A DNA stretch of 64,000 bases from Bartonella apihabitans (GTDB lineage Bacteria > Pseudomonadota > Alphaproteobacteria > Rhizobiales > Rhizobiaceae): assembly GCF_030758755.1 (NCBI RefSeq), contig NZ_CP132387.1:1612001-1676000 (forward strand). Reading direction: 5' to 3'. How positions within the stretch are numbered: position 1 is the first letter of the stretch; each line of letters begins with the position of its first letter. The position numbers were made by a program, and so were the translations under genes. The notes below the pieces were generated by a model that had not been told where the DNA came from, did no database searches, and saw only the letters and a list, made by a program, of their open reading frames with translations. Shown here piece after piece: positions 40,301 to 62,964 of this stretch.

Positions 40301-40543
40301 TTTCTGGGTGATTTCACGATCGATTGTTTCAGCCGCCGCACCATCGAAATCGGTTGAGACTGTGACCACCGGACGGTCGACATCCGGCAATTCGCGCACA
40401 TCAATGCCCTGAAGTGCGGCAAGCCCCGCCACCATGATGAGCACATTGAGCACAAAAGCCGAAACCGGCCGGCGGATGAAAAGTGCAACCAGCCCGCCTT
40501 TATCCTTTTCGCGTTCACCGGATTTCTGAAAAGCGCCCGCCAT
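37314..40543 (-). pseudogene. Second RND efflux transporter (HAE-1), frameshifted in the middle
   Basis: Two frames, 39209-40543 (N-terminal half) and 37314-39224 (C-terminal half), give one RND permease of normal length (~1075 residues). The N-terminal half starts ALFIRRPVSAFVLNVL and holds the proton-relay [20 protein letters not shown]. The C-terminal half resumes at VFFAVIATTLTLVAVFVPISFLPG. The break lies at GCGCC-AGGGCT (plus strand about 39252-39259). One added base restores GAAPRAAAVIGTREVFF. The C-terminal half also has GIMAKNGILIVEFADQL. A single-base deletion in otherwise perfectly conserved sequence points to a recent mutation or a sequencing error. Confidence 0.85.
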
Positions 40544-44955: not shown

Positions 44956-45032
44956 GCACCCGTAGCTCAGCTGGATAGAGCACCAGACTACAAATCTGGG
45001 GGTCAGGAGTTCGAATCTCTTCGGGTGCGCCA
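44956..45032 (+). tRNA. tRNA with arginine-type body but anticodon ACA
   Basis: Intact 77-nt cloverleaf with encoded CCA: acceptor GCACCCG/CGGGTGC and G73, D arm AGCTCAGCTGGATAGAGC (A20 present), anticodon stem CCAGA/TCTGG, T arm AGGAGTTCGAATCTCTT. The body matches bacterial tRNA-Arg, most closely tRNA-Arg(ACG), whose loop is CTACGAA or CTACGGA. Here the loop is CTACAAA, giving anticodon ACA at 44990-44992, formally a cysteine (UGU) anticodon. C35, the main arginyl-tRNA synthetase identity base, is kept. Confidence 0.8.
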
Positions 45033-45332: not shown

Positions 45333-46004
45333 TCACTTAATTAAACTCAATGATGATCTTAATGATTTGCATGCCGACATTATATGGGAATAGAGGAGTT
45401 CACCGGCATAGCTGACATTCTTGTCACGACATGCATTAAGCAGAAGGAGATGTTCTTTATCTGCCAGATTTTTACCATGGGATAGCGATAATTGAATGCG
45501 CAAATATCGTTCCAGACGGTCATTCAACGAACGAATTGTTTTCACGAAAAATGGTCTATTCGCATCTTCAAAAAGAGAACTGTGAAATTGCCAGTTTAAC
45601 AATGCCCACTTCGAGACATCCTTTTCCTCTTGGAATTGATGGCAATAAAGGCTTGCCTTTTCCAAGGATTCTTTGGTCATATTGGGAATTGATAGCTCAA
45701 CTGTACGGCTTTCAAGAATTGCTCTCATTTCAAAAATTTGAACAATCTCGGGCTCGGTGAGCTCGGTTACTATAGCCCCCTTATTGCGCTTGAATTCAAC
45801 AAACCCCTCTGACTCAAGCTGTTTTAAAGCCTCTCTGACCGGTATCTTGCTTACATTGAATAATTGCGCAACCTCATCCTGACGTATTGCCTCACCACCT
45901 GCCAGAGAACCATCAATGATAGATGATCTGATATATCTCAGTATGACATCAGAGGTGGACGGAATCTGCGCTAAATCGGGTATATTATTGCTTGGTAATG
46001 GCAT
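45333..46004 (-). CDS. GntR-family (FCD) regulator of the hydroxyproline genes
   Basis: 223 residues: an N-terminal winged helix (RYIRSSIIDGSLAGGEAIRQDEVAQLFNVSKIPVREALKQLESEGFVE) and a C-terminal all-helical FCD ligand domain starting near residue 85 with EMRAILESRTVE. Members of this family sense small carboxylates or amino acids. It is divergent from the proline-racemase-family gene, with a perfect palindrome between, so it most likely controls that gene and itself, with hydroxyproline or a product as inducer. Confidence 0.9.
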   Translation of the reverse strand: MPLPSNNIPDLAQIPSTSDVILRYIRSSIIDGSLAGGEAIRQDEVAQLFNVSKIPVREALKQLESEGFVEFKRNKGAIVTELTEPEIVQIFEMRAILESRTVELSIPNMTKESLEKASLYCHQFQEEKDVSKWALLNWQFHSSLFEDANRPFFVKTIRSLNDRLERYLRIQLSLSHGKNLADKEHLLLLNACRDKNVSYAGELLYSHIMSACKSLRSSLSLIK

Positions 46005-46075
46005 TAATCGGCTATTCCGTTGAAAAGTTCATTCAGATTAAAACACAGATTGACGTGTAAATCCATACTTGGTAG

Positions 46076-46087
46076 ATCGTATACGAT
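46076..46087. promoter_or_regulatory. GntR/FCD operator upstream of the hydroxyproline genes
   Basis: ATCGTATACGAT, a perfect 12-bp palindrome containing the T-N-GTATAC-N-A core typical of FadR-subfamily operators, located 22 bp before the start codon of the racemase-family gene. Confidence 0.75.
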
Positions 46088-46109
46088 ATACTTTTTTAGG
46101 GAGGACAAA

Positions 46110-47138
46110 ATGCGTACCAGCAAAATTGTGCATGTTGTGAGCTGCCATGCGGAAGGGGAAGTGGGCGATGTGATTGTCGGGGGAGTAACACCTCCTCCGG
46201 GCAATACAATCTGGGAGCAATCGCGTTGGTTAGCCAAAGATGAAACCTTAAGAAATTTTGTTTTAAACGAGCCGCGTGGCGGGGTATTCCGTCATGTAAA
46301 TCTGCTTGTTCCTCCCAAAAACCCGAAAGCCCAGATGGCCTGGATCATCATGGAACCTGCCGATAACCCACCAATGTCCGGTTCGAATTCCATATGTGTT
46401 TCGACTGTATTATTGGATACAGGCATTATTCCGATGCAGGAACCGATCACACATATGACTCTTGAAGCACCAGGTGGTTTGGTAGAGGTTGAAGCCGAGT
46501 GTAAAAATGGCAAGGCCGAAAGGATCAATGTTCGTAATGTCCCCTCTTTCGTTGACAAATTGGATGCGAAACTTGAAGTTGAGGGCATAGGCACAATATC
46601 AGTTGATACCGCCTACGGGGGCGATAGTTTTGTGATTGTCGATGCCGCTTCTATCGGCCTTGGCCTTCATCCTGATCAAGCAAGGGATATTGCCACGCTT
46701 GGGATCAAGATTACCAATGCGGCCAATGAACAACTCGGCTTCAAGCACCCTGCCAATGATTGGAACCACATATCCTTTTGCCAAATCACCGACCCGATAA
46801 CGAAAAAAAATGGTGTCCTATGGGGGAAAAATGCCGTCGTTATTCAACCGGGGAAGATCGATCGTTCACCCACAGGCACCGGCTGTTCGGCGAGAATGGC
46901 AGTCCTTTACGCGCGTGGAGAAATGAAGGTCGGTGATAAATTCGTAGGGACATCAATTATCGATACCGAGTTTCATTGCAGAATTGAGAGTGTTGGAGAG
47001 ATCAACGGTAAACCGGCAATAAAACCGATCATTTCCGGCCGCGCTTGGGTTACCGGAATACATCAGCACATGATTGATCCGTCTGATCCTTTCCCTACCG
47101 GTTATCGACTGGCTGATACATGGCCAATGAACAAATAA
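46110..47138 (+). CDS. Proline racemase family: trans-3-hydroxy-L-proline dehydratase / 4-hydroxyproline 2-epimerase
   Basis: A 342-residue cytoplasmic enzyme of the proline racemase fold. The catalytic pair is Ser/Cys: the first position reads [10 protein letters not shown] (Ser90 where racemases have Cys) and the second [13 protein letters not shown] keeps Cys. In this family the Ser/Cys pair is associated with hydroxyproline 2-epimerase and trans-3-hydroxyproline dehydratase activity, not plain proline racemisation. The start at 46110 is set by AGGGAGGA; an upstream in-frame extension has no such site. The next gene, a pyrroline-2-carboxylate-reductase-type protein, makes the dehydratase role more likely. 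Confidence 0.88.
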
Positions 47139-47358
47139 GTCGCGTTATGCCAATTTTAGAAATTGAATTTCCCTCGCGAGATAAAGAAAAAAGAATTGTC
47201 GGCAATGGAAATTATAAAAGTTTTGAAAGAGAAGCTTGGTATTCCGTCACTATCAACGACTGTCATTTTTACGGGAAATAAGCCGGAATGACCGGTTTGT
47301 GGCTCATAAAAAATACTGAAGTCCCCCTTAATTAATATTGAGATGAATGGAAGAACAG

Positions 47359-48318
47359 ATGAGCTTTGCAATTTATGATGCAGACGAAACTGCCGAAGGT
47401 TTGGCATTTCCTTCCTTGATCAATGAACTTGAACTGGGTTTCAAAGAAGGTTGCGAGGTTCCTGTTCGCCATCATCATCAGATCAGGCAAAACGGGGAAG
47501 TGGACTCAACTCTTTTGCTCATGCCCGCCTGGAGCAATGGCACCACCAAAGATCAATATCTTGGTGTAAAACTGGTTACCGTGATGCCGGGAAACACAGC
47601 ACGAAAAATGCCCGGACTTTATTCGACTTATATCCTTTACAATAAAGTAACAGGCGAGCAGTTGGCAATTCTGGATGGCAATACCATTACAGGAAGACGC
47701 ACTGTCGCCACGTCGGCATTAGCTTCCAAATATTTATCCCGACCAAACTCGAGCAAGCTTTTGGTCATTGGTGCTGGACGTGTGGCCAGTCTACTTGCGG
47801 AAGCCCATGCAGCAACACGCCCGATCAGGTTTGTCAAAGTTTGGAACATAAATCCGGCCAATGCCGAAAAGCTTGTCTCACACCTTAACGCGTTGGGGTT
47901 TGCGGCCAAACTCAGCGAAAATCTGGAAGCCGATGTTAAAGAAGCAGATATTATAACGTCGGCAACTTTATCGACAGAGCCGATTATTAACGGTGACTGG
48001 CTTCAAGAAGGCACACATGTCGATCTCATTGGTGCTTTTACACCAAAAATGAGAGAATCCGATGATCTCACAATCAAGAAGAGTAAGGTTTATATCGACA
48101 CTGAAGAAGCACTTGATGAAGCAGGCGATATTGTACAGCCTTTAAAAAGTGGCATTATCAATAAAACCCATATCAAAGCAACATTGACAGATTTGATAAA
48201 GGGTAACGCAAAGGGACGCATCAATGATCGGGACATAACGCTTTTTAAAGCGGTGGGGACCGGATTGGCTGATTTGGTTGCAGCCCGATTGGTTTATAAT
48301 TCTGCAAAAAAACGATAG
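47359..48318 (+). CDS. Ornithine cyclodeaminase/mu-crystallin family, probable pyrroline-2-carboxylate reductase
   Basis: About 319 residues with the family's N-terminal LLLMPAW and Rossmann NAD(P) loop VIGAGRVASLLAEAH near residue 135. In hydroxyproline operons this family reduces delta-1-pyrroline-2-carboxylate, the product of the dehydratase, to L-proline, which completes a two-enzyme route. The ATG at 47359 follows GGAAGAA; an ATG 12 bp upstream is less well placed. It is 220 bp after the dehydratase on the same strand, so probably co-regulated. Confidence 0.85.
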   Translation: MSFAIYDADETAEGLAFPSLINELELGFKEGCEVPVRHHHQIRQNGEVDSTLLLMPAWSNGTTKDQYLGVKLVTVMPGNTARKMPGLYSTYILYNKVTGEQLAILDGNTITGRRTVATSALASKYLSRPNSSKLLVIGAGRVASLLAEAHAATRPIRFVKVWNINPANAEKLVSHLNALGFAAKLSENLEADVKEADIITSATLSTEPIINGDWLQEGTHVDLIGAFTPKMRESDDLTIKKSKVYIDTEEALDEAGDIVQPLKSGIINKTHIKATLTDLIKGNAKGRINDRDITLFKAVGTGLADLVAARLVYNSAKKR

Positions 48319-51501: not shown

Positions 51502-51557
51502 GAGCCTAGACTTCCACACATAGATATTCGAGCCTAGACTTCCACACACAGATATTT
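51502..51557. repeat. 28-bp tandem duplication at the end of the aldehyde dehydrogenase gene
   Basis: The last bases of the gene, including its stop codon, occur twice in tandem (51502-51529 and 51530-51557, starting GAGCCTAGACTTCCACACA), with one or two mismatches. A local slippage duplication; the protein end is unaffected. Confidence 0.75.
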
Positions 51558-53011
51558 AAGCTCCGTATAGTCATCCAGACTGAAATGTGACCCTTCGCGT
51601 CCTATGCCTGATTGTTTAATGCCTCCGAAAGGTGCCGTTTCTGTTGAAATAGCACCGGTATTAATTCCGACCATGCCATATTCAAGTGCTTCGGCGACAC
51701 GTATTATTTTCGAGTAATCCCTGGAATAAAAGTAGGCTGCAAGACCGAATTCGGTATTATTAGCCGCTGCAATGACTTCTTCCACTGTGTTAAACTTGAA
51801 AATGGGTGCCAAGGACCAAAGGTTTCTTCCCTTGCGACTTTCATATTTGATGTGATGCCGGTCAGAAGTGTGGGAGCAAAAAAGTGACCTGTTTCCTCCA
51901 ATCTGTTTCCTCCCGTGACCAGAGTGGCACCTTTTTCCATAGCATCCTTCAGGTGCTCTTCCACCTTTTCCAGCGCTTTATCTGTAATGAGCGGTCCGAT
52001 CGTCACATTCACGCTAAAACCGTTACCGACTTTGAAGGCGGCAATGCGCTCACCGAGCTTTTTCACAAATTCATCATGCACATTCTTCTGGACATAAAGC
52101 CGGTTGGCGCAGACACAGGTCTGACCGGCATTGCGAAACTTTGAAACAATCGCCCCTTCAACTGCTTTATCGATGTCGGCATCGTCAAAAACGATAAAAG
52201 GTGCATTGCCACCGAGTTCAAGGCTCATTTTCTTGATCTGGTCGGAACATTGACGCATCAAAATACGGCCTACATTGGTAGAACCGGTAAAACTGACTTT
52301 GCGCACTTTTTCATTATTGCAAATTTCCTGACCGATTTCCGCACTTTTTGTTCCAAGAACGAGATTGATGAGGCCTTTGGGAAAACCGGCCATTTCTGCC
52401 AGTTTTACAAGTGCAATGGCAGTCAATGGTGTTTCCGCCGCTGGCTTTGCAACGACACTGCAACCGACAGCCAATGCCGGCGCAATTTTTCGCGTTAGCA
52501 TAGCTGCGGGGAAATTCCATGGCGTGATAATTCCGACAACACCTACCGGTTGACGGATGACAATGATACGTTTGCCTTTGCTAAAAGGGGGAATTGTTTC
52601 GCCATAAAGCCGTTTGGCCTCTTCGGCAAACCATTCGATATAGGATGCCGCATAATTGACTTCGCCTTTGGCCTCCAGAAGCGGCTTGCCCATTTCAAGC
52701 GTCATAATGGCAGCCACAGCATCCCTGTTTGCGATAAGAAGATCATGCCATTTGCGTAAGAGCCGGCTTCGTTCGGCCGAAGTTCTTTCAGCCCATTCTT
52801 TTTGCGCCTCGAACGCTGCTTGAATAGCCGCCGATGTTTCTTCTTTCCCCATATCCGGCAATGTGGCGAGAATTTCACCATCGGCAGGATTATCAACGTC
52901 GAAATGACCGTGCGAGCCGGTTTTGACCCAGACTCCGTCAATGAAGCCCGCATCCTCGAGTAATTTTTCGAAATTGGTTACATGTTTTTTCAAAATCTCT
53001 TTCAAAACCAT
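51534..53011 (-). pseudogene. Aldehyde dehydrogenase, GabD-like, frameshifted near the C-terminus
   Basis: NAD(P)-dependent aldehyde dehydrogenase close to succinate-semialdehyde dehydrogenase, about 490 residues when repaired. Seen in order: VGIITPWNFPAAM, KPAAETPLTAIAL, the catalytic Glu in LELGGNAPF and the nucleophile in AGQTCVCANRLYVQ. At EETFGP the frame breaks; one T restored at about 51808-51817 gives GPLAPIFKFNTVEEVI and the rest reads normally (GMVGINTGAIS, APFGGIKQSGIGREG). The last gene of the operon, 33 bp after the transporter ATPase. Its presence suggests a C4-semialdehyde-like intermediate. Confidence 0.87.
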
Positions 53012-53044
53012 GGTCGCAACTATCTTTTCTCTGTTGTGAAATAT

Positions 53045-54133
53045 CTATTCTTCGTTAAAAACACGGGCATTGGATGCTTCAAAAGCAAGATAAACTTTTT
53101 TATCAAGAGCCAATTTTGCAATGGCCGGATCCCCAAAAGAAAGACGCACTGCAATTGGCTGACCGGCGTTTGTTTTCGTCGCAACATGGACGTTGTTACC
53201 AAGAAAATTGATGTCTTTGATAATGACTTCCAGAACGGTATCGCTTGTAGCCGTTTCATGAAGCGTTATCCTTTCGGGGCGCAACATCAAGGTAGCTTTG
53301 GCTCCGGCTGTGACATTATTATGGGCAGGCACATTCTCGATTACTGAATCGCCACAGCGGATTGTCGCCAGACCTTCTTTATGCTCAAGAATTTCACAAG
53401 CAATAAAATCACTATCGCCAATGAATTCTGCAACAAAACGTGTTGCCGGATCGGCATAAAGCTCCTGCCCCGTGCCGACCTGATCAATACGGCCTTGTGA
53501 GAAAACGGAAATACGGTCGGAAAGGCGCAAAGCTTCTTCCTGATCATGGGTCACATAGAGGATGGTCACCTCTGTCTGATGATGGATGCGGCGGATTTCG
53601 TACTGGATTTCTTCCCGCAGTTTTTTATCAAGCGCCGAAAGCGGCTCATCCATCAACAGAACCGGTGGATCATAGGCAAGTGCGCGGGCGAGCGCGACAC
53701 GTTGTTGCTGACCGCCGGACATTTGCGAAGGCCGGCGATCTTCGAAACCTTCAAGGCGAACCAATTTCAGCATTTGGCGCACTTTTTCGGTTATTTCGGC
53801 TTTTGGACGCTTGCGCACTTTAAGCGGAAAAGCAATGTTTTCACCCACTGTCAAATTGGGAAACAATGTGTAACGTTGGAACACCATACCGACATTACGT
53901 TTATTGGATGGCGTCGAAAGCAAGCTCTGACCATTAATCTTGATATCTCCGCGGGTTGGATTTTCAAAACCGGCAAGAATATAAAGGGTCGTGCTTTTGC
54001 CTGAACCGGATGGTCCAAGAAAGGTCATAAACTCACCTTTATCGATATTCAAATCGACATTATGAACGGCAACAACAGAGCCATATTCCTTGCGGATATT
54101 TTCAATCTTCAAGAACGGTTCAGTCATTTTCAT
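53045..54133 (-). CDS. Polyamine-type ABC transporter ATPase, PotA-like
   Basis: 362 residues. ATPase core with Walker A GPSGSGKSTTL near residue 42, signature MSGGQQQR, Walker B VLLMDEPLSALD and VTHDQEEAL. A C-terminal TOBE regulatory domain (~240-355) follows with LMLRPERITL and VAVRLSFGDPAI-like strands. The architecture is that of PotA/PotG ATPases for spermidine, putrescine and related cationic compounds. It overlaps the permease gene by 14 bp. Confidence 0.92.
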   Translation of the reverse strand: MKMTEPFLKIENIRKEYGSVVAVHNVDLNIDKGEFMTFLGPSGSGKSTTLYILAGFENPTRGDIKINGQSLLSTPSNKRNVGMVFQRYTLFPNLTVGENIAFPLKVRKRPKAEITEKVRQMLKLVRLEGFEDRRPSQMSGGQQQRVALARALAYDPPVLLMDEPLSALDKKLREEIQYEIRRIHHQTEVTILYVTHDQEEALRLSDRISVFSQGRIDQVGTGQELYADPATRFVAEFIGDSDFIACEILEHKEGLATIRCGDSVIENVPAHNNVTAGAKATLMLRPERITLHETATSDTVLEVIIKDINFLGNNVHVATKTNAGQPIAVRLSFGDPAIAKLALDKKVYLAFEASNARVFNEE

Positions 54134-54923
54134 TTCCTTTACGTAAAAGCGCGAAAAACAGCATCAAAACCAATGTGAACAAAATTAACATTGTAGAGGC
54201 TGCGGCGATAACCGGTGTCAGACTTTGACCCAAGGTTGCCCAAATCTTGACCGGCAATGTCTGGAGGGTCGGGCTTGCCTGAAAAATAGCGACAACCACT
54301 TCATCCCATGATGTCAAAAACGAGAAAATGGCAGCCGAAAATATACCGGGCATAATGGCAGGAACTGTAATTTGTAAACGTGCCTGCCATTGGCTGGCGC
54401 CACATAAGACAGCAGCATCTTCTATCGACTTGTCGAATCCTTCCAGAACTGTTGTGATGGATAATACCGAAAATGGCAGTGCAAGGATTAGATGGCCGAT
54501 AACAAAACCGAAAAACGTACCATTAAATCCGAGCTTCAAGGAGAAAGCGTAAAGCGCGACGGCCAGAATAATAACGGGCATAATCATTGGCGTCAAAAAG
54601 AAAGTTCTTACCACCTCTCGCCCTTTGAACTGGCCGCGAACAAGACCGAATGAAGAAATAAGCCCAAGGCCTACCGATAAAATCGTAACGACAACAGCAA
54701 TCTTGAAACTGGTCCATGCAGATGTAAGCCAGCGTGGATCGCTGAATAATTCGACATACCAGCGCGTTGTCCAACCGGGCGGCGGAAAGATCAGCCATTG
54801 GGAAGAGCCAAAAGACAAAGCCACAATGAAAATAATAGGCAGTAACAAAAAGGCTGAAACGATAATGAGAATTATAACCAATATATAACGCCACCAGCCA
54901 AGTTTGTTGAAATTAAGTAACAT
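54120..54923 (-). CDS. Polyamine-type ABC transporter permease, PotC-like
   Basis: A 267-residue inner-membrane permease with six predicted helices, N-terminal LNKLGWWRYILVI and the EAA coupling loop near residue 170 (EDAAVLCGASQWQARLQITVPAIMPGIF). It pairs with the next upstream permease gene (9 bp away) to form the channel. Confidence 0.9.
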   Translation of the reverse strand: MLLNFNKLGWWRYILVIILIIVSAFLLLPIIFIVALSFGSSQWLIFPPPGWTTRWYVELFSDPRWLTSAWTSFKIAVVVTILSVGLGLISSFGLVRGQFKGREVVRTFFLTPMIMPVIILAVALYAFSLKLGFNGTFFGFVIGHLILALPFSVLSITTVLEGFDKSIEDAAVLCGASQWQARLQITVPAIMPGIFSAAIFSFLTSWDEVVVAIFQASPTLQTLPVKIWATLGQSLTPVIAAASTMLILFTLVLMLFFALLRKGNEND

Positions 54924-54932
54924 GGCCGCCTC

Positions 54933-55781
54933 CTACTTTTTAACATTCAGTAGTTTGAACTGGATGGTGTAGAGTATCAAAGTAACTACCATCAACACGA
55001 ACGCAGCTGCGCCACCCATGCCCCAATTAAGCAGCGACTGGACAAACTGCGCGATCATTTGTGCCACCATCATATTTGCAGCGCCGCCGAGCAATGCCGG
55101 TGTGACGAAATAACCGAGTGACATAACAAACACCATCAGCGCACCGGCAGCCATTCCGGGAGCCGATAAAGGCAACAGAATACGCCATAAAGCTTGTGTG
55201 CGTGACGCGCCGCAAAGCGAGGCGGCCTGCAAAATGGAAGGATCGATCTTTTTCAAAGTGCTATGCAACGGCAAAACTATAAAAGGCAACATGATATAGG
55301 TCATGCCGATGATAACGCCTGTCAGATTGTTGATGAGCGGTAATGGCCGATGAATAAGACCAATGCCCATCAACACCTTGTTTATCAGGCCGGTTTGCTG
55401 AAGAAGGATCATCCATGCATAGGTTCTCGTCAAAAGATTTGTCCACATGGACAACAGCATGATTCCGAAAAAAATCTGTGCCCAACGCTGCGGCATGATA
55501 GCAAGCCCCCAAGCCACCGGAAAACCGACGACAAGAGATATGACGGTAACGACACCGGAAACAATGAAAGTATTCAGAAAGACTCTTAAATAATTCGTCG
55601 ATCCCAGTAGCGCTTCGTAATTTTGCAATCCAGGTTCAGGCTCCATGACACTGCGCAATAAAAGACCGAGCAGCGGAATAATGAAGAAGATGACTAGAAG
55701 TGCAATGGCCGGTATGACAAGACCGATATGACTGGCCTTCCAGCGTTGGGATAAAGTCAGTTGGTCATTGACTGTTTGCAT
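54933..55781 (-). CDS. Polyamine-type ABC transporter permease, PotB-like
   Basis: A 282-residue permease with six predicted helices. The first membrane segment begins at HIGLVIPAIALLVIFFIIPL. The EAA loop is LQAASLCGASRTQALWRILLPLSAPGMAAG near residue 185. The N-terminal domain MTYIMLPFIVLPL and late QFVQSLLNWG are family-typical. GGAGG precedes the ATG. Confidence 0.9.
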   Translation of the reverse strand: MQTVNDQLTLSQRWKASHIGLVIPAIALLVIFFIIPLLGLLLRSVMEPEPGLQNYEALLGSTNYLRVFLNTFIVSGVVTVISLVVGFPVAWGLAIMPQRWAQIFFGIMLLSMWTNLLTRTYAWMILLQQTGLINKVLMGIGLIHRPLPLINNLTGVIIGMTYIMLPFIVLPLHSTLKKIDPSILQAASLCGASRTQALWRILLPLSAPGMAAGALMVFVMSLGYFVTPALLGGAANMMVAQMIAQFVQSLLNWGMGGAAAFVLMVVTLILYTIQFKLLNVKK

Positions 55782-55891
55782 TGAATTAACCTCCCCTTTT
55801 CGTCCCCTCCTCCGGAACGAAACTAGACCATGATATTCTGAAATTGGAAAATACGAACCCTATCTTCAGGTCGGCATTTCCCTATGACAGT

Positions 55892-56902
55892 TTATTTTGC
55901 CTGCCATGCATACCAGCGTTTACCGATTTCTTCACGATTGCTTGCCCAATATTGCATGTTCAGATTGACCTGACTTTCGCTGTGTCTATCCGGCATATTG
56001 TCGAGCAGTTCGGGAGCCATATATTTTTCTGAATCGAGATTAATGGGTGCAAAACCTGTTTCCGTTGCCATTGTGGCCTGCCCCTCGGGTGAAACGGCAG
56101 TGGCCAGAAACTTCATGGCCAAATCTTTCTTTTTATTGCCTTTGAGAACAACAAGTTGATCGGAAGCCGTCAAATTCTGCTGCCATGAAATCTTGGCATT
56201 GATACCGGTACGTTGCAAAATGGTCATGCGCCCATTCCAGATCAAACCATAGGGTGTCTCACCCGATGCAATCAATTGCTGGCTTTGCGCTCCGCCCTGC
56301 CACCAGACGATATAGTCTTTTATAGTATCCAATTTTTTGTAAGCCCGATCCAAATCGAGTGGATAGAGTTCATCCGGTTTGACACCGTCAGCGAGCAATG
56401 CCGCTTCGAGAACACCGGGAGCCGACCATTGATACAAGGTACGTTTTCCGGGGAATTTATCGACATCAAAAAAATCCGCCAACGTCTCCGGACAGGCTGG
56501 TGCTGCATCGGCATTGCACCCGATCACAAAAGAATAATAAAAACTACCAACCGAATAATCTGTAACAAAACGGGGATCCAGACGTGTTTTATCAACAATT
56601 GAAAAATCGATCGGTTCAAGCCATCCCTTGTTTGCTGCATAAATTGCAAAATCTGCTTCTACATCGACAACATCCCATGAAATATTGCCGGATTCGATCA
56701 TCGCCTGCAATTTTCCATAGTCGGTCGGTCCATCCTGCAATACAGCCGATTTGGTTGCCGTGGTGAAACGTTCCGCCCAAGCTTTATATTGACCGTCCTG
56801 TGTCGTTCCCCCCCATGCGGTAAAAACAATATTTTCGGAATGAGCCGTATTTGCGCCCCATAAAAAAGCCGAACATATAAATGCCAAATATAGTTTTTTC
56901 AT
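55892..56902 (-). CDS. Polyamine-type periplasmic binding protein, PotD-like
   Basis: 336 residues: signal peptide MKKLYLAFICSAFLWGANTAHS, then a two-lobed PotD/PotF-type fold with VFTAWGGTTQDGQYKAW and WDVVDVEADFAIYAANKGWL. Aromatic and acidic residues typical of amine binding are present (IVWWQGGAQSQQLIASGETPYGLIWNGRM). The bound compound need not be a polyamine; the family also takes opines, thiamine-like and aminophosphonate ligands. It lies 110 bp before the permeases, the largest gap in the operon. Confidence 0.9.
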   Translation of the reverse strand: MKKLYLAFICSAFLWGANTAHSENIVFTAWGGTTQDGQYKAWAERFTTATKSAVLQDGPTDYGKLQAMIESGNISWDVVDVEADFAIYAANKGWLEPIDFSIVDKTRLDPRFVTDYSVGSFYYSFVIGCNADAAPACPETLADFFDVDKFPGKRTLYQWSAPGVLEAALLADGVKPDELYPLDLDRAYKKLDTIKDYIVWWQGGAQSQQLIASGETPYGLIWNGRMTILQRTGINAKISWQQNLTASDQLVVLKGNKKKDLAMKFLATAVSPEGQATMATETGFAPINLDSEKYMAPELLDNMPDRHSESQVNLNMQYWASNREEIGKRWYAWQAK

Positions 56903-56942
56903 CTGCTCCTCCCTGCTGTTTTCTATTTTTACCGTTTGTGTC

Positions 56943-57257
56943 CTATGGAAGCGGTGAAAAATCGGCCGCTTTCATGATCTTGTTTTCTGCACTAATGATA
57001 AAATCTTTGAAAGCGCCCAGACATTTTTGCCAGGCAGGATCCTTTATCAATTTGGCGCGACGAACCTCCCGTTCATCGAGACTTGCATAGGCCCATATAT
57101 GGACGATCTGGTTGATTGGACCGATTTCACCATAATAATAGCCGACGAGATTTCCCAGATAGCGCTTTTGAATTTCGATCCCTTCTTCCCCGATAATCTT
57201 CAAATATTGAGGTACGGTACCATTTTTGAGCTGATAGGTGCGTATTTCGATATACAT
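56943..57257 (-). CDS. NIPSNAP-family protein
   Basis: A 104-residue ferredoxin-like (alpha+beta) protein with the NIPSNAP signature: YIEIRTYQLKNGTVPQYLKI at the start, LVGYYYGEIGPINQIVHIWAYASLDERE in the middle. These small proteins occur in catabolic operons beside flavin monooxygenases; their role is not established, possibly as a dimeric lyase or binding protein. It starts 4 bp after the upstream dehydrogenase gene. Confidence 0.88.
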   Translation of the reverse strand: MYIEIRTYQLKNGTVPQYLKIIGEEGIEIQKRYLGNLVGYYYGEIGPINQIVHIWAYASLDEREVRRAKLIKDPAWQKCLGAFKDFIISAENKIMKAADFSPLP

Positions 57258-57261
57258 CGTT

Positions 57262-58723
57262 TCACCTCATCACAAAGGGATCGGGTATCGGGGCATCGGA
57301 CGTTCTCACCCAGACTGTTTTTGTGGTCGTGTAATCGAGTGCTGCTTCAATTCCACCTTCACGGCCATGACCGGAAACACCATAACCTCCAAAAGGGGCA
57401 ATCGGTGAAACAGCACGATAGGTATTGACCCACACGATACCGGAATGGATTGCATCGATCATACGATGGGCCAAACTGAGCCGATTGGTGAAGACACCGG
57501 AAGCCAAGCCGAATTCGGTGTCATTTGCGAGATTGACTGCCTCTTCCTCTGTTTCAAAGGAAACCACCGAAAGAACCGGTCCAAAAATTCGTTAACCAGC
57601 GAAGGAGAGTCGATGCCGTCACAGTCGAGGATTGTCGGTAGATAATAGTAGCCGGTTTCTTTCGCCCTTTTACCACCTGTTATCAACTTGGCTCCCGCCT
57701 TAATTGAATCGGCAACCAATTTCTCGATACGCTCGAGTTGACGTTTAGTAGCCAAAGGCCCGATTTCGGTTGCCATATCCTGCGGGTTTCCGATAACGAT
57801 CTTTTCCGCTTTCTCTTTCAAACGCTTCAAAAATTCGTCCTTGATAGAGCGCTGGATGATAAGACGTGAACCGGCAACACAACTTTGGCCGGTTGCGGCA
57901 AATACAGCAGCAACTTGCGTGTTGACCGCACTTTCAATATCCGCGTCTTCAAAAACAATAAAAGGTGATTTTCCTCCCAGTTCGAGGGACGTCGATGCGA
58001 GGTTGTTGGCAGAATTGCGGATAATATGGCGCGCTGTTTCTGTACCGCCGGTAAAGGCAATATGGGCAATATCGGGATGAGAGCTCAAAACGGCGCCGCA
58101 ATCCTTGCCATTGCCGGTGATGATATTGACAACGCCTTTGGGAAAACCGGCTTCATGAACAAGACGTGCAAAAGCCAAAAGCGGCGTCGGCTCATCTTCC
58201 GAAGCTTTGACGACAACCGTGCAACCGGCAGCAAGTGCCGGACCATTTTAACCGCAGATAGAAAAAGCTGGCTGTTCCATGGAATAATCAAGGCGACAAC
58301 ACCGATTGGCTCACGCTTCAATATAACCTGCATTTCCGTTTTATCTATCGGCAGAACCGCGCCTTCAATTTTATCGGCAAGACCGGCATAATAACGATAA
58401 TAATCGGCAACATAAGCAATCTGGCTTGATGTTTCGCGAATGATCTTACCGGTATCGTCTGTCTCCAGCCGCGCCAATTCGGATGCGTTCTTTTCAACGA
58501 GATCGGCAAGTTTATATAAAAGCTTGCCACGCTGCGTCGCATTGAGATTTCTCCAGGAAGGGTCGTGAAAGGCTTTTTTGGCGGCAGCAACAGCCCTGTT
58601 GACATCGTTTTCCCGCGCTTCGGCAATTTCGACCCATGGCTGTTCGGTTGCCGGATCGAGGCTTTTGAAACTAGCCTCGCCCCGTACGAACTCACCATCA
58701 ATATAGGATTCAAAATATTCCAT
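57262..58723 (-). pseudogene. Aldehyde dehydrogenase, two frameshifts
   Basis: Three successive frames (58085-58723, 57459-58178, 57262-57567) encode one aldehyde dehydrogenase of about 487 residues. Seen in order: EYFESYIDGEFV, VALIIPWNSQLFL, the Rossmann/Glu region LELGGKSPF, the nucleophile in TGQSCVAGSRL, and the C-terminal WVNTYRAVSPIAPFGGYGVSGHGREGG. Break 1 is a G lost in GGG at about 58240; repair gives KMGPALAAGCTVVVKASEDEPTPL. Break 2 is a T lost in a T6 run at about 57583; repair gives NEFFGPVLSVVSFETEEEA. All family residues are otherwise intact. It overlaps the monooxygenase gene by one base. Confidence 0.85.
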
Positions 58724-59763
58724 TATTGTGCTCCAAAAGCGGGGATGACATCCTTTATAAAACGCTCCAAAGAAGCTTTTTTGCGTTCAAAAGTCATTCC
58801 GCTATCGATCCAGAACGAATATTCGTCAAATCCGAGTTTTTCATAATTCTTCAGTTTTGCGATAACCTCGTCTGCTGTACCGATTGAAAGATTATTCAGC
58901 ATAACCTCCGGTGCAACCATGGTATTCTGCGCCATATCTTCTTCTGTGAGCGGGTCTACCAGTCCCTGATGAATCGGGCTTTTGTTCTTTGCCCACGCCA
59001 GAAAATAATTGTAATACCGGCTCAGTTCTTTTGCCGCTTGCTGCTTGTCGGCATCACCATCGGCAACGTAAGTGTGCTGAAGAAGCATGATTTTCGATTT
59101 ATTGTCAGGATATTTTTCCTGCGCAGCACGGAAACGCCCCATCAGATTCCGGACTTCTTCATCACCATTCCACAAAGCCAGACATTGAACATTGCAACCA
59201 TTTGCAACAGCAAATTCATGACTATTCGGATCACGAGCGGCAATCCAGAGTGGCGGATGTGGCTTCTGGAGAGGTTTCGGAGAAGAGGTGGTCGACGGGA
59301 ACTTCCAGAACTCGCCATTATGGGTATAATCACCGATCCAGAGTTTCTTGATAGCCGGTATCATTTCACGCAATTTCTGACCGGCAGTCCATGCATCAAG
59401 TCCGGGGCTCAAGCGTTCATATTCGAAATTATAAGCACCACGTGCAATACCGACTTCCAAACGCCCGTTCACCATATGGTCTGCGGCAGCCACTTCCCCC
59501 GCCACCCTGATCGGATGCCAGAACGGTGCGATAATCGTTCCTGTTCCAAGCCTAACATTCTTTGTCACATGGGACAAATCAACCAGATATAACAAAGGGT
59601 TTGGTGAAATCGTAAAATTCATACCATGGTGTTCACCAGTCCAGATTGTAGAAAAACCGCCAGCATCTGCAATTTTACAAAGCTCGACATATTCGTGATA
59701 AAGTTCTTCATCAGTTGGACCAGCAACAAGACGTTCCATATGAATAAAAAGAGAGAATTTCAT
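58723..59763 (-). CDS. Luciferase-like (LLM) flavin-dependent monooxygenase
   Basis: 346 residues of the bacterial luciferase/LLM TIM-barrel class, using reduced flavin and O2. Landmarks: MKFSLFIHMERLV at the start, IWTGEHHGMNF near residue 43, VRLGTGTIIAPFWHPIRVAGEVAAADHMVNGRLEVGIARGAY near residues 70-112. I chose the ATG at 59763 because homology begins there and GAAAGG precedes it; longer frames are spurious. Such enzymes cleave C-C, C-N or C-S bonds or do Baeyer-Villiger chemistry. The partner flavin reductase gene is 4 bp upstream. Confidence 0.9.
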   Translation of the reverse strand: MKFSLFIHMERLVAGPTDEELYHEYVELCKIADAGGFSTIWTGEHHGMNFTISPNPLLYLVDLSHVTKNVRLGTGTIIAPFWHPIRVAGEVAAADHMVNGRLEVGIARGAYNFEYERLSPGLDAWTAGQKLREMIPAIKKLWIGDYTHNGEFWKFPSTTSSPKPLQKPHPPLWIAARDPNSHEFAVANGCNVQCLALWNGDEEVRNLMGRFRAAQEKYPDNKSKIMLLQHTYVADGDADKQQAAKELSRYYNYFLAWAKNKSPIHQGLVDPLTEEDMAQNTMVAPEVMLNNLSIGTADEVIAKLKNYEKLGFDEYSFWIDSGMTFERKKASLERFIKDVIPAFGAQ

Positions 59764-59767
59764 TTTT

Positions 59768-60700
59768 TTATACCTTTCGCGAAACAGGGTGGATTGAACC
59801 GGTATGTTCGTTACCAAAATAAACAGTGAAGTTTCCGATTTTACTTTCGCCAATGTAGCGCTTGATCACATCGGCAGTGGCTGAAGAGACCAGTTTGTCA
59901 AAGGGGATTTCGTCAAAGGAAAATAACTTTCCCTCTTTAGGCGAACCGCCTTCCATCAGAGCACGATAAACTATGTGTTGCTGGCCGCTACCTCGATTTT
60001 CGTAAATCGAATAGGGAAAGCCCACATCCACGACACAACCGGAAAGATTACGTAAATAATCTTGTAAGTCTTTCACTGCATCGTCGGTTTGCGGCGTTGT
60101 TTCCGGCAACGTCCATTGTCCGTTTTCTGTTTTCAGCAAATAAAGGGCGCCATGTGTCTCGGTAACAGCCGCGATCTTCACCGTACCGTTGGCAGCAGCG
60201 GCTGCTACGGCTTTGCCGGCCAATGATGACGTAACATAACGACCACGCGCATAACCAAGACCGCTTGCAGCCGAATTGGTAAAAGCGATAACACGTCCCA
60301 ACAGAATTAAATGGTCACCGGCTTCGATGCTCTTTTCCAAAAGGCAAGTAAAGCTCGCAGCAACATGATCGATAATCGGCACATCGAATTCGCTCTTATG
60401 CCATTCAACTTGCGAAAATCTGTCTTCAACAGGACGAGCAAATGTATTGGATACAGCTATCTGGTCCTCTGAAAGAATATTTATTCCAAAATGTTGTGCA
60501 TTGGCAAAATTATCATAATTACGCGAGCTTTTGGCAATACACACCGCAAGGAGAGGTGGCTCAAGAGAAACCGAAGAAAAAGAATTGGCAGTAAAACCGA
60601 CCGGAGAACCGTCTTTCGCCACAGCGGTTACAACAGTCACGCCCGTCATAAAGGCTCCAAATGCATCGCGCAACGCGCGCAGGTCAATACCTTCTTCCAT
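59768..60700 (-). CDS. Flavin reductase fused to a Nudix-like domain
   Basis: 310 residues. Residues ~1-165 are a HpaC-type flavin reductase: FMTGVTVVTAVAKDGSPVGFTANSFSSVSLEPPLLAVCI and GDHLILLGRV. It would supply reduced FMN or FAD to the adjacent monooxygenase. From ~175 to the end a second domain resembles a Nudix fold (ALYLLKTENGQWTLPE, HIVYRALMEGG, FSFDEIPFDKL), but the catalytic REUxEExGU box is degenerate (AVKDLQDYLRNLSG), so it is more likely a binding or regulatory module. Standard HpaC-type reductases are about 165-200 residues; this extension is unusual. GGAGG precedes the ATG. Confidence 0.85.
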   Translation of the reverse strand: MEEGIDLRALRDAFGAFMTGVTVVTAVAKDGSPVGFTANSFSSVSLEPPLLAVCIAKSSRNYDNFANAQHFGINILSEDQIAVSNTFARPVEDRFSQVEWHKSEFDVPIIDHVAASFTCLLEKSIEAGDHLILLGRVIAFTNSAASGLGYARGRYVTSSLAGKAVAAAAANGTVKIAAVTETHGALYLLKTENGQWTLPETTPQTDDAVKDLQDYLRNLSGCVVDVGFPYSIYENRGSGQQHIVYRALMEGGSPKEGKLFSFDEIPFDKLVSSATADVIKRYIGESKIGNFTVYFGNEHTGSIHPVSRKV

Positions 60701-60710
60701 TTATTCCTCC

Positions 60711-61517
60711 CTAATTATCCAGCCATTTTTTCATGATTTGATTTACTTTTTCGAATGCTGTCAGATTGACCATATGACGGTGCCCTTCGATAATGACAGC
60801 CGTCCCGTTCTGCGTTGCAGCGGCCATATCAATCGACATTTGAGGCGTTGAATTCGGGTCGTCCGAGCCGGTAATGAATAGAGACGGCATTGTGACAGAG
60901 GGCCAACAGTCTGCGTAGACATCATCCCCTTCCGAAAACGCACGGTAAGCTGTTCTATAGCCACGGATATCGACACCGGCGAGCCAGTTTCTAACGACAC
61001 CGACAATCGGAGCATTGGCCGGATCATCACCAAACCAACGTTCAATCGGCGAGACAATATCAACTTTACCGTTTTCAATTTCGCGGGCACGTTTAACAAC
61101 AGCCGATCGTGATGCCGCGTCACGCTTATAAACCCCGTTCAACAAAGCAACGCGCTTCACCCTGTCGGACAATTCGGCAGCAGCACCTTCGGCAATCAAT
61201 GCGCCCATCGAATGGCCCGCGACGGATATGTTTTGAAGAGAAAGATCGGCAAGGAAACGGCCAAACCATTGAACGAAATCCGGCAATCTTGCGTTTTCAC
61301 CAATATAGCTGCTTTTCCCGTGTCCGGGCATATCAACAGCAATAACGCGATGGGTCAGAGAAAATGCGTCTATTTGCGGTGCCCATGCCTCCAATCGCAT
61401 GCCGACACCATGGATCAGCACAAGAACCTCCCCCTCCCCCACGTCACAATAAGCCGTGCCGTGGGGCGACATTTTACGTTCACGAGATTTTATAAGTGAA
61501 TCCGGAGATACCGTCAC
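60711..61517 (-). CDS. Alpha/beta hydrolase
   Basis: 268 residues with the oxyanion motif VLIHGVGM near residue 33, the nucleophile elbow AGHSMGALIAEG (Ser near residue 102), a likely acid in ITGSDDPNSTP near residue 217 and the catalytic His in IEGHRHMVNL near residue 245. It is a complete serine-hydrolase triad. In this operon it would hydrolyse the ester or lactone produced by the monooxygenase, or an amide. GGGAGGAA-like site precedes the start. Confidence 0.88.
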   Translation of the reverse strand: MTVSPDSLIKSRERKMSPHGTAYCDVGEGEVLVLIHGVGMRLEAWAPQIDAFSLTHRVIAVDMPGHGKSSYIGENARLPDFVQWFGRFLADLSLQNISVAGHSMGALIAEGAAAELSDRVKRVALLNGVYKRDAASRSAVVKRAREIENGKVDIVSPIERWFGDDPANAPIVGVVRNWLAGVDIRGYRTAYRAFSEGDDVYADCWPSVTMPSLFITGSDDPNSTPQMSIDMAAATQNGTAVIIEGHRHMVNLTAFEKVNQIMKKWLDN

Positions 61518-61551
61518 ATCTTCCTCCCAAAAGATTAAACGTTATTTTACA

Positions 61552-62154
61552 TCAAATACCGGCAGGGTTTTTGATGTCACCTCCCATTTCTTTTATGTCC
61601 TGATAACGATCTCCTATGCGATGATGAGGACGACCGCCAACAGAAGCGCCAAGGGCAATGACGATTTCATCATTTGCCGGAGCATCAGGAACAGCTGTTT
61701 GAATTGTAAGATAATGAGAACGACGTCCCTCATCATTTTTATCCATGAGCGGGATCATAATAGCGGCATTGGCCGTGCCACGCGTATTACAAAAAGCAAG
61801 ATAGGACTTGGCACCAACTGCATTACGATAGAAATTGCCAAACCGTAATGTATGAATAAGCGCCGATGCATGCTCGATTTCACCGTCCAAGCCGACAATA
61901 GCAGATTTACCATAGGCCTCGACGCGTTCGCCACCGCCGACTGCCTCAACAATCATGTCGGTTAAAAGTTTACCCAAAATCGGGGCCTGTTCATGAATTT
62001 CAGGCTTGAGATCTTCTACAAATCCACGGCCCGCCCAAGGGTTTTTAATAACAGCAATCGCTGCATAAAGTGTCAGAGGGATTTTCGCCTCTTTTCCACC
62101 TTCGATAAGGGTTTTTTCAATTTGCAAAAGTGTTTTTCGAACCTTGAGAGCCAT
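61552..62154 (-). CDS. DUF1185 ('amino acid synthesis') family protein
   Basis: About 200 residues from the ATG at 62154, which has GGAGG ten bases upstream (an in-frame ATG at 62169 overlaps that site). Family features: KIPLTLYAAIAVIKNPWAGRGFVEDL near residue 20, VEAVGGGERVEAYGKSAIVGLDGEIEHASALIHTL and VIALGASVGGRPHHRIGD. DUF1185 proteins are widely found beside amidases, hydrolases and flavin oxygenases, but their reaction is not established. First gene of the operon, directly next to the operator and regulator. Confidence 0.88.
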   Translation of the reverse strand: MALKVRKTLLQIEKTLIEGGKEAKIPLTLYAAIAVIKNPWAGRGFVEDLKPEIHEQAPILGKLLTDMIVEAVGGGERVEAYGKSAIVGLDGEIEHASALIHTLRFGNFYRNAVGAKSYLAFCNTRGTANAAIMIPLMDKNDEGRRSHYLTIQTAVPDAPANDEIVIALGASVGGRPHHRIGDRYQDIKEMGGDIKNPAGI

Positions 62155-62181
62155 CCCGTTTTCCTCCATTTGATAATAACA

Positions 62182-62197
62182 TTATGGTATACCATAA
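62182..62197. promoter_or_regulatory. Perfect palindromic operator controlling the catabolic operon
   Basis: TTATGGTATACCATAA, a perfect 16-bp palindrome with the T-x-GTATAC-x-A core of FadR-subfamily GntR sites, lies between the operon and its divergent regulator, 28 bp before the DUF1185 start. The only similar site in the window is the 12-bp one at 46076. Confidence 0.8.
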
Positions 62198-62274
62198 TAC
62201 ATATTGTCAATCGATATTTTTCAGCTTAAAGAGAAAATATCTGAAAATAAAAATTGGATGCTAAAAGCTCAAAG

Positions 62275-62964
62275 ATGATGACAAGCCACAGCACCATGCG
62301 TATTAAACGCCCCAACACGACATTGCGTGAACTTGCGCTTGAAAAAATGCGTCAGGCTATTTTGGAATTGCATTTCAAACCGGGAGAACGTTTGGTCGAA
62401 CGCAAATTATGTGACGAACTCGGAGTTAGCCGCACTGTGGTTCGGGAGGTGTTGCGGCATCTGGAAGCTGATGGTCTTGTCCAGACATTGCCGAACAAGG
62501 GGCCAATTGTTGCCATTACAACGGCAGACGAAGCACGACAAATCTATGAAATACGTGCGATTTTGGAAGCAACAGCAGCACGCGCCTGCGCACTGGAAAA
62601 TAATAAGGCGAACAGCAAAAAGCTACAGCAAATCATGGATCATATCCGTTTAGCCTATAGTGAAAAAAACTATGATCATGTGTTATCAAACACCAATGCG
62701 TTTTATGATACGCTGTTTCGAGCCTCACACCGTGAAATAGCACTTGGCATTGTTAATTCTCTGAAAATTCGCATTAATCATTTGCGTTCTCTCACCATCA
62801 AGTCGCCGCAACGCGATATCGAGGGACCAAAACAAATGCAGAAGATTGTCGATGCCATTTCTGCAGGCAATGGAGAGGAAGCTTATGAGGCAACATTAGC
62901 CCATATCAAACGTGCTTCCGAAATTGCCAAAACAATTCTTGATAAAGATGAAACAGTCTCCTGA
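62275..62964 (+). CDS. GntR-family (FCD) regulator of the catabolic operon
   Basis: About 229 residues: winged helix MRQAILELHFKPGERLVERKLCDELGVSRTVVREVLRHLEADGLV, then an FCD effector domain from about residue 75 (QIYEIRAILEATAARACA) with the family's metal/ligand histidines further on (YDTLFRASHREIALG, ALAHIKRASEIA-like end). Divergent from the operon across a 120-bp spacer with a perfect palindrome. The ATG at 62275 (or 62278) is preferred to a TTG at 62254. It probably represses until an operon substrate or intermediate binds. Confidence 0.9.
   Translation: MMTSHSTMRIKRPNTTLRELALEKMRQAILELHFKPGERLVERKLCDELGVSRTVVREVLRHLEADGLVQTLPNKGPIVAITTADEARQIYEIRAILEATAARACALENNKANSKKLQQIMDHIRLAYSEKNYDHVLSNTNAFYDTLFRASHREIALGIVNSLKIRINHLRSLTIKSPQRDIEGPKQMQKIVDAISAGNGEEAYEATLAHIKRASEIAKTILDKDETVS

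Follow-up and report, generated by a model that had tools for sequence, protein, structure and literature searches.

A row of eleven genes on the minus strand of Bartonella apihabitans, occupying 62169-51534 of a 64-kb stretch of contig NZ_CP132387.1 (positions 1,612,001 to 1,676,000; the whole stretch is referred to as the window in the rest of the paper, and belongs to a 2.74-Mb genome assembly in three contigs), is very probably, as judged from sequence comparison, the trigonelline (tgn/trc) operon in its rhizobial form, and the kind of pathway that it would encode has already been described. We put at roughly 0.85 the probability that the operon imports trigonelline (N-methylnicotinate) and degrades it to succinate. 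The original prediction had placed in this row the genes for DUF1185, a hydrolase, a flavin reductase, an LLM monooxygenase, an aldehyde dehydrogenase, a NIPSNAP protein, four Pot-type transport proteins and a second aldehyde dehydrogenase, opposite a GntR regulator, and our analysis confirmed both the eleven genes in that order (51534-62169) and the regulator, which is of the GntR/FCD type and diverges from them at 62254-62964 on the plus strand. The proposed sequence of import, opening of an N-heterocycle, one hydrolysis and two aldehyde oxidations toward succinate also stands in outline. What does not stand is the assignment to an unidentified compound and to no described pathway with this exact set of genes, as Acinetobacter baylyi has the same core in its trigonelline cluster, and the symbiotic plasmid of Sinorhizobium meliloti has the whole set, with the NIPSNAP and Pot-type genes.

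Conservation of the gene cluster

Acinetobacter baylyi is reportedly the species in which the trigonelline pathway was worked out (strain ADP1). In another strain of this species, DSM 14961, the genes for the regulator, DUF1185, the hydrolase, the reductase, the LLM oxygenase and the first aldehyde dehydrogenase follow the order of the window, and a gene for succinate-semialdehyde dehydrogenase (SSADH) lies downstream of the aldehyde dehydrogenase gene in both. Overall, the window proteins are 40-74% identical to those of A. baylyi. The two clusters differ in the interval between the dehydrogenase genes, where A. baylyi carries a cytosine-permease-type gene and an open reading frame (ORF) that by eye resembles a porin gene, whereas the window carries the NIPSNAP gene and those of a Pot-type ABC importer. 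On pSymA of S. meliloti, all twelve genes are present in the order of the window and in open frames, with proteins 53-78% identical, except that the regulator gene lies upstream on the same strand instead of being divergent. As it lies on this plasmid near nod and nif genes, we take this locus to be the trc region of Goldmann 1991 and Boivin 1990. The title of Goldmann 1991, as it appears in the reference list of PMC12489286, places genes essential for trigonelline catabolism on pSym, and a passage of PMC4207669 states that wild-type S. meliloti grows on 10 mM trigonelline while a strain devoid of pSymA does not.

We compared 93 loci of relatives, comprising 13 records from a plasmid collection and 80 genome loci, the latter being the best 80 of at least 549 relatives found when named genomes were searched with an Acinetobacter LLM protein. 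Among the 77 genome loci with enough upstream sequence, the DUF1185 gene was in place in all 77, and the five-gene core formed by the DUF1185, hydrolase, reductase, LLM and aldehyde dehydrogenase genes was found together in 74; in the other three (L036, L039 and L042) the reductase gene was not found in place, nor was the hydrolase gene in L042. Five of the 93 loci, representing four species, have the complete set of twelve genes, ordered as in the window and each in an open frame: S. meliloti ABS7, S. meliloti 1021 pSymA, Phyllobacterium zundukense, Rhizobium johnstonii 3841 and Phyllobacterium brassicacearum. As in the window, the regulator gene is divergent in the two Phyllobacterium loci; the remaining three have it on the strand of the other genes. 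Synteny is thus not limited to this genome; had it been, this would have counted against the original prediction. Transport genes varied: all four ABC genes were detected in 21 of the 80 genome loci (downstream on the same strand in 13, and on the opposite strand in eight, in Burkholderia and Paraburkholderia), a cytosine-permease-type transporter gene in 20, and the NIPSNAP gene, searched for with a Phyllobacterium probe, in eight, all of them Hyphomicrobiales by their titles. The probes behind these NIPSNAP and transporter counts were Phyllobacterium and Caballeronia proteins, which may miss diverged copies. From these gene contents, the core seems to be constant and the importer exchangeable.

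Several loci showed features of their own. In Mesorhizobium sp. WSM1497 (L022, 10205-12004), the hydrolase and flavin reductase are seemingly fused in a single frame of about 600 residues. Annotated sarcosine oxidase genes adjoin the cluster of P. zundukense (L016, 3832-8851), and ORFs that by eye have the size of sarcosine oxidase genes lie beside that of A. baylyi (L029, 1243-6412); perhaps such genes serve the N-methyl end of the pathway.

A conserved operator-like palindrome

A perfect palindrome had been noted between the operon and the regulator gene, and we located it at 62181-62198 in the divergent spacer, where its 18 bases, with the core TGGTATACCA, make it the longest perfect palindrome of the window. 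When the 84-base spacer was shuffled 5000 times with its dinucleotides kept, 13 shuffles contained one as long. In 61 of the 77 loci, TGGTATACCA stands exactly in the roughly 200 bases preceding the DUF1185 gene, and 75 loci have it there if one mismatch is allowed; of 2934 random 220-base stretches drawn from the same loci, two have it exactly and 11 with at most one mismatch. Elsewhere in these loci (1.53 Mb) there were eight other exact sites, five of which lie about 90-120 bases before an SSADH gene, in four Acinetobacter loci and one of Ruegeria. The A. baylyi cluster, which is among these four, has the exact core before its SSADH gene and a site with at most one mismatch before its DUF1185 gene. 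No site within one mismatch was detected before the DUF1185 gene in L086 and L096 despite a divergent regulator, and no GTATAC-centred palindrome was found within 150 bases before this gene in the S. meliloti loci L013 and L014. Judged by its recurrence at the same place, the palindrome is a conserved operator.

The regulator (TgnR-like), in which Pfam identified FCD and GntR domains, is 44% identical to its A. baylyi counterpart, which likewise diverges from the cluster. The start codon of the window's regulator gene is uncertain, with methionines close behind. Regulator and operator are common to the window and to other clusters. The GntR protein would bind the palindrome, probably repressing transcription in both directions until the substrate arrives.

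Gene products and proposed pathway

The trigonelline degradation pathway was reportedly set out by Perchat et al. in 2018, and we follow it, as reported, in naming the intermediates and in the designations TgnC and TgnD. In this pathway, as we would apply it to B. apihabitans, trigonelline would be taken up by the Pot-type ABC importer, which consists of a PotD-like solute-binding protein (55892-56902, minus strand as for all eleven genes; 67% identical to its S. meliloti counterpart), a PotB-like permease (54933-55781; 68%), a PotC-like permease (54120-54923; 56% identical to S. meliloti ABS7 and 70% to P. zundukense) and a PotA-like ATPase (53045-54133; 71% to S. meliloti). A flavin reductase with a C-terminal extension (TgnA-like, 59768-60700; 40% identical to A. 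baylyi and 53% to S. meliloti) would supply reduced flavin, and the product of the adjoining gene, an LLM flavin-dependent oxygenase (TgnB-like, 58723-59763; 64% to A. baylyi), would open the pyridinium ring. The reductase matches PDB entry 3rh7 (E 1e-100). This entry is the very reductase encoded on pSymA of S. meliloti 1021, the printed sequences being identical over 312 residues. A passage of PMC8269262 attributes opening of the aromatic ring to TgnA and TgnB, and a legend in PMC11354265 lists Q6F9F6 as TgnB, a flavin-dependent trigonelline monooxygenase.

The enzymes expected for the ring-opened product and for the last step are all encoded. The first aldehyde dehydrogenase (TgnC-like, 57262-58723; its pieces 67-74% identical to A. 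baylyi) would convert the ring-opened aldehyde or lactol to N-methylformamido-methylene-succinate, which the alpha/beta hydrolase (TgnD-like, 60711-61517; GHSMG motif at residues 101-105; 51% to A. baylyi) would split into succinic semialdehyde, formate, methylamine and CO2. The last dehydrogenase (TgnE-like SSADH, 51534-53011; pieces 51 and 63% identical to A. baylyi), aided by DUF1185 (TgnF-like, 61552-62154; 67%), would then form succinate. The longer SSADH piece found its best NCBIfam match in the SSADH subfamily at 560.9 bits; the cut-off of 646.35 applies to the whole protein, so that a lower score is expected for a piece. We think that the LLM and DUF1185 genes start near 59763 and 62154, respectively, instead of at 59853 and 62169, because homologues indicate that the earlier starts are too far upstream and, for DUF1185, a GGAGG precedes 62154.

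Phylogeny of the LLM oxygenase and the question of substrate

Outside the species, the LLM protein of the window has its nearest relatives at about 70% identity, and seven of the 120 close matches listed bear the Joint Genome Institute (JGI) name "flavin-dependent trigonelline monooxygenase, oxygenase component". We built a tree of 53 LLM sequences by a quick method with SH-aLRT support, which came from 43 chosen loci of the 93, from the window, from G073 (another genome of this species) and from a Pantoea locus, with two LLM proteins of middling likeness and five from operons of a sister type added. The sequences of the window and of G073 fall into a clade of 45 (support 99) together with those of A. 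baylyi and S. meliloti, while the sister-operon proteins, about 40% identical, lie outside this TgnB clade (support 100), as do the two middling ones. Tree and synteny do not agree neatly throughout, as the Mesorhizobium protein of L022 lies outside the clade despite the same gene order. The LLM protein of the window therefore groups with a known enzyme whose pathway uses the other genes of the row, which is what a comparison with characterised pathways had been meant to settle.

Several observations weigh against assigning the operon to trigonelline. More of the close LLM matches listed carry the general JGI name "alkanesulfonate monooxygenase SsuD/..." than the trigonelline name. The LLM protein of the window sits on a long branch (0.65) whose position within the clade is not resolved, and it departs at nine of 117 columns that are invariant in 43 relatives (L022 excluded), compared to at most six of 123 for any single relative in a leave-one-out control. 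Furthermore, 24 of 174 invariant positions are changed in the solute-binding protein, as measured against only 14 relatives, and two genes of the operon are broken in frame in the window's assembly.

Mainly because of the long branch and the nine departures, which include the neighbouring pairs 38-39 and 195-196, we retain as an alternative, albeit an unlikely one, that the diverged oxygenase prefers another N-methylated or carboxylated pyridine such as homarine or N-methylpyridinium. The drift of the solute-binding protein and the existence of sister operons, in which an LLM protein of about 40% identity is accompanied by the same partner families, are in keeping with such a shift. However, strong conservation is seen in the TgnC-, TgnD- and TgnF-like proteins, all of which have to accommodate the ring-opened product: departures from positions invariant in relatives amount to 1/69 for DUF1185, 3/39 for the hydrolase and 5/195 for the first aldehyde dehydrogenase, with 1/58 for the reductase and 8/148 for SSADH (both dehydrogenases read from G073, and SSADH compared with 12 relatives only). 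Moreover, gene order and operator match those of the trigonelline cluster, and homarine is considered unlikely for TgnA/TgnB on steric grounds in a passage of PMC8269262. We infer that the substrate in this Bartonella is the same as in the trigonelline clusters, namely trigonelline.

The sister operons (L020, 9466-15255; L120, 2681-10280; L017, 18747-25032) have the LLM gene beside those for a flavin reductase, an aldehyde dehydrogenase and DUF1185. L020 and L120 add genes for an alpha/beta hydrolase and a carboxymuconolactone-decarboxylase family protein, and L020 also one for NIPSNAP; the stretch of L017 ends in the LLM gene. They are perhaps the same module adapted to another substrate, and since the partner families are the same, the module probably serves other substrates too. 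A third type of operon (L121, 2410-12894; L122, 3496-12988) has genes for DUF1185, a hydrolase and RidA facing those for an aldehyde dehydrogenase and an LLM protein, together with a flavin reductase gene in L122, followed by genes for a carnitinyl-CoA dehydratase or enoyl-CoA hydratase, a 3-hydroxyacyl-CoA dehydrogenase and a 3-keto-5-aminohexanoate cleavage protein.

Frameshifts in the dehydrogenase genes

The original prediction had described one unbroken series of genes, which is not what the assembly contains, as both dehydrogenase genes are out of frame. We aligned the window with G073 over 15.8 kb (98.6% identity) and found seven indels, three of which leave the window exactly one base short inside the dehydrogenase genes. 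Two of these, near 58244 and 57582, spread the tgnC-like gene over three reading frames, and the third, near 51812, spreads the tgnE-like gene over two. The other four consist of two single missing bases and an insertion of five bases outside genes, and of one extra base at the start of the LLM gene. In G073, both dehydrogenase genes are whole, with open frames of 508 codons for the first and 503 codons for SSADH. The tgnC gene is likewise open in a congener, G018, whose contig ends before the site of the last dehydrogenase gene.

Taken at face value, the three frameshifts would mean that the operon is dying and that the pathway has been lost in the window's strain, a scenario that would suit the two broken genes, the remaining genes of the operon being open, and the scarcity of this type of DUF1185 gene: of 71 Bartonella genomes, only 3 have it, namely the window's, G073 and the fragmented G018. 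The intact frames of G073 and G018 weaken any notion of a pseudogene operon. In addition, six of 11 aldehyde dehydrogenase family genes are split in the window's assembly (18 listed pieces, grouped by hand), compared to one of 11 in G073, apparently one of the same six, which points to faults in the assembly itself. Two other sites in the window point the same way. The gene for an AcrB-type RND pump (37314-40543) is split into two overlapping frames, a further sign of assembly indels, and a tRNA gene with an arginine-type body (44956-45032) has the anticodon ACA and is called tRNA-Cys, whereas its counterparts in G073 and in the congeners G021 and G007 have ACG (tRNA-Arg), making an assembly error likely. 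We therefore regard real loss as improbable. Given the whole genes of G073 and the excess of split genes in the window's assembly, errors in the assembly are the likeliest source of the frameshifts, and the trigonelline operon would be intact. We also considered whether the missing bases were tied to one methylated motif, which fitted three gaps relative to G018, the others not clearly; the motif was not depleted in the window and the idea was dropped.

Other pathways considered

It is very improbable that the operon serves some unidentified compound, such as an alkaloid or a polyamine, by a pathway not yet described: the NIPSNAP protein indeed has no assigned role, but each core gene has a close relative at the corresponding position of the A. 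baylyi cluster, for which reason we dropped this explanation, and each operon gene has a close relative on pSymA. The Rut pyrimidine pathway is alike in outline, as it combines an LLM oxygenase, a flavin reductase, an alpha/beta hydrolase and a Rid-fold partner, RutC. We rejected it, as the RutF and RutD models were matched by window proteins far below their cut-offs (82.7 bits against 254.75, and 52.2 against 238.5, respectively) and the RutA model was absent from the 25 listed of 26 matches of the LLM protein. A monooxygenase of the type acting on ethylenediaminetetraacetate (EDTA) or nitrilotriacetate (NTA) was likewise discarded, the NtaA/DmoA model scoring 27 bits against a cut-off of 279.7.

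DUF1185 and NIPSNAP

The DUF1185 protein scores above the gathering threshold of Pfam PF06684 (AA_synth), a family of hexamers with a chorismate-mutase-like fold, and has the fold of PDB entries 3byq and 2qtp. These were the only convincing Foldseek matches of its AlphaFold model, which has a mean pLDDT of 77.6 and weak loops. DUF1185 and NIPSNAP had been proposed as possible suppliers of a missing step, yet DUF1185 is not wholly a blank: a passage of PMC7913881 (2021) reports that TgnF, the A. baylyi homologue of DUF1185, stimulates TgnE-dependent oxidation of succinic semialdehyde. In the same passage, the authors could not see a comparable stimulation for their own HcdD. We suggest tentatively, and with considerable doubt, that TgnF is itself an enzyme with a Rid/chorismate-mutase-like fold, acting by hydrolysis or tautomerisation on the enamine or enol that the hydrolase sets free and thereby feeding the last dehydrogenase, and that it belongs to a general module made up of an LLM oxygenase, its reductase, an aldehyde dehydrogenase, an alpha/beta hydrolase and DUF1185. 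If this were true, the module would open N-heterocycles in several types of operon, of which the trigonelline operon would be only one. DUF1185 is constant in the trigonelline cluster and present in the sister operons that we read, which makes its reaction a well-posed question.

The NIPSNAP protein (56943-57257), which matches PDB entry 2ap6 (E 1e-40), had matches only to its family and to PDB entries without a named function. It presumably belongs to the trigonelline pathway.

Neighbouring genes and distribution

Adjoining the operon, 45333-48318 holds a second GntR/FCD regulator gene beside genes of the proline-racemase and ornithine-cyclodeaminase families, possibly a second small catabolic unit. 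The best relatives of its ornithine-cyclodeaminase family gene in G007, G018 and G021 are only 51-52% identical. The anthranilate synthase of the window shares 98% identity with a protein assigned by name to Bartonella, in agreement with the genus.

Of 150 genomes of the order, 15 (that of the window among them) have an LLM protein matching at E of at most 1e-100, and, considering also the count of DUF1185 genes in the genus, the gene set is sporadic. Its conserved operator offers a simple handle for finding the regulon elsewhere, and what had been a guess about an unknown compound becomes a named, testable substrate. Trigonelline is a common plant alkaloid. It has been measured in bee pollen, according to a passage of PMC9278072, and if this Bartonella species lives in the bee gut, as its genome size and GC content would suggest, diet would explain the gene set. 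The genus Bartonella would thereby gain a plant-alkaloid operon, as predicted from its genes.

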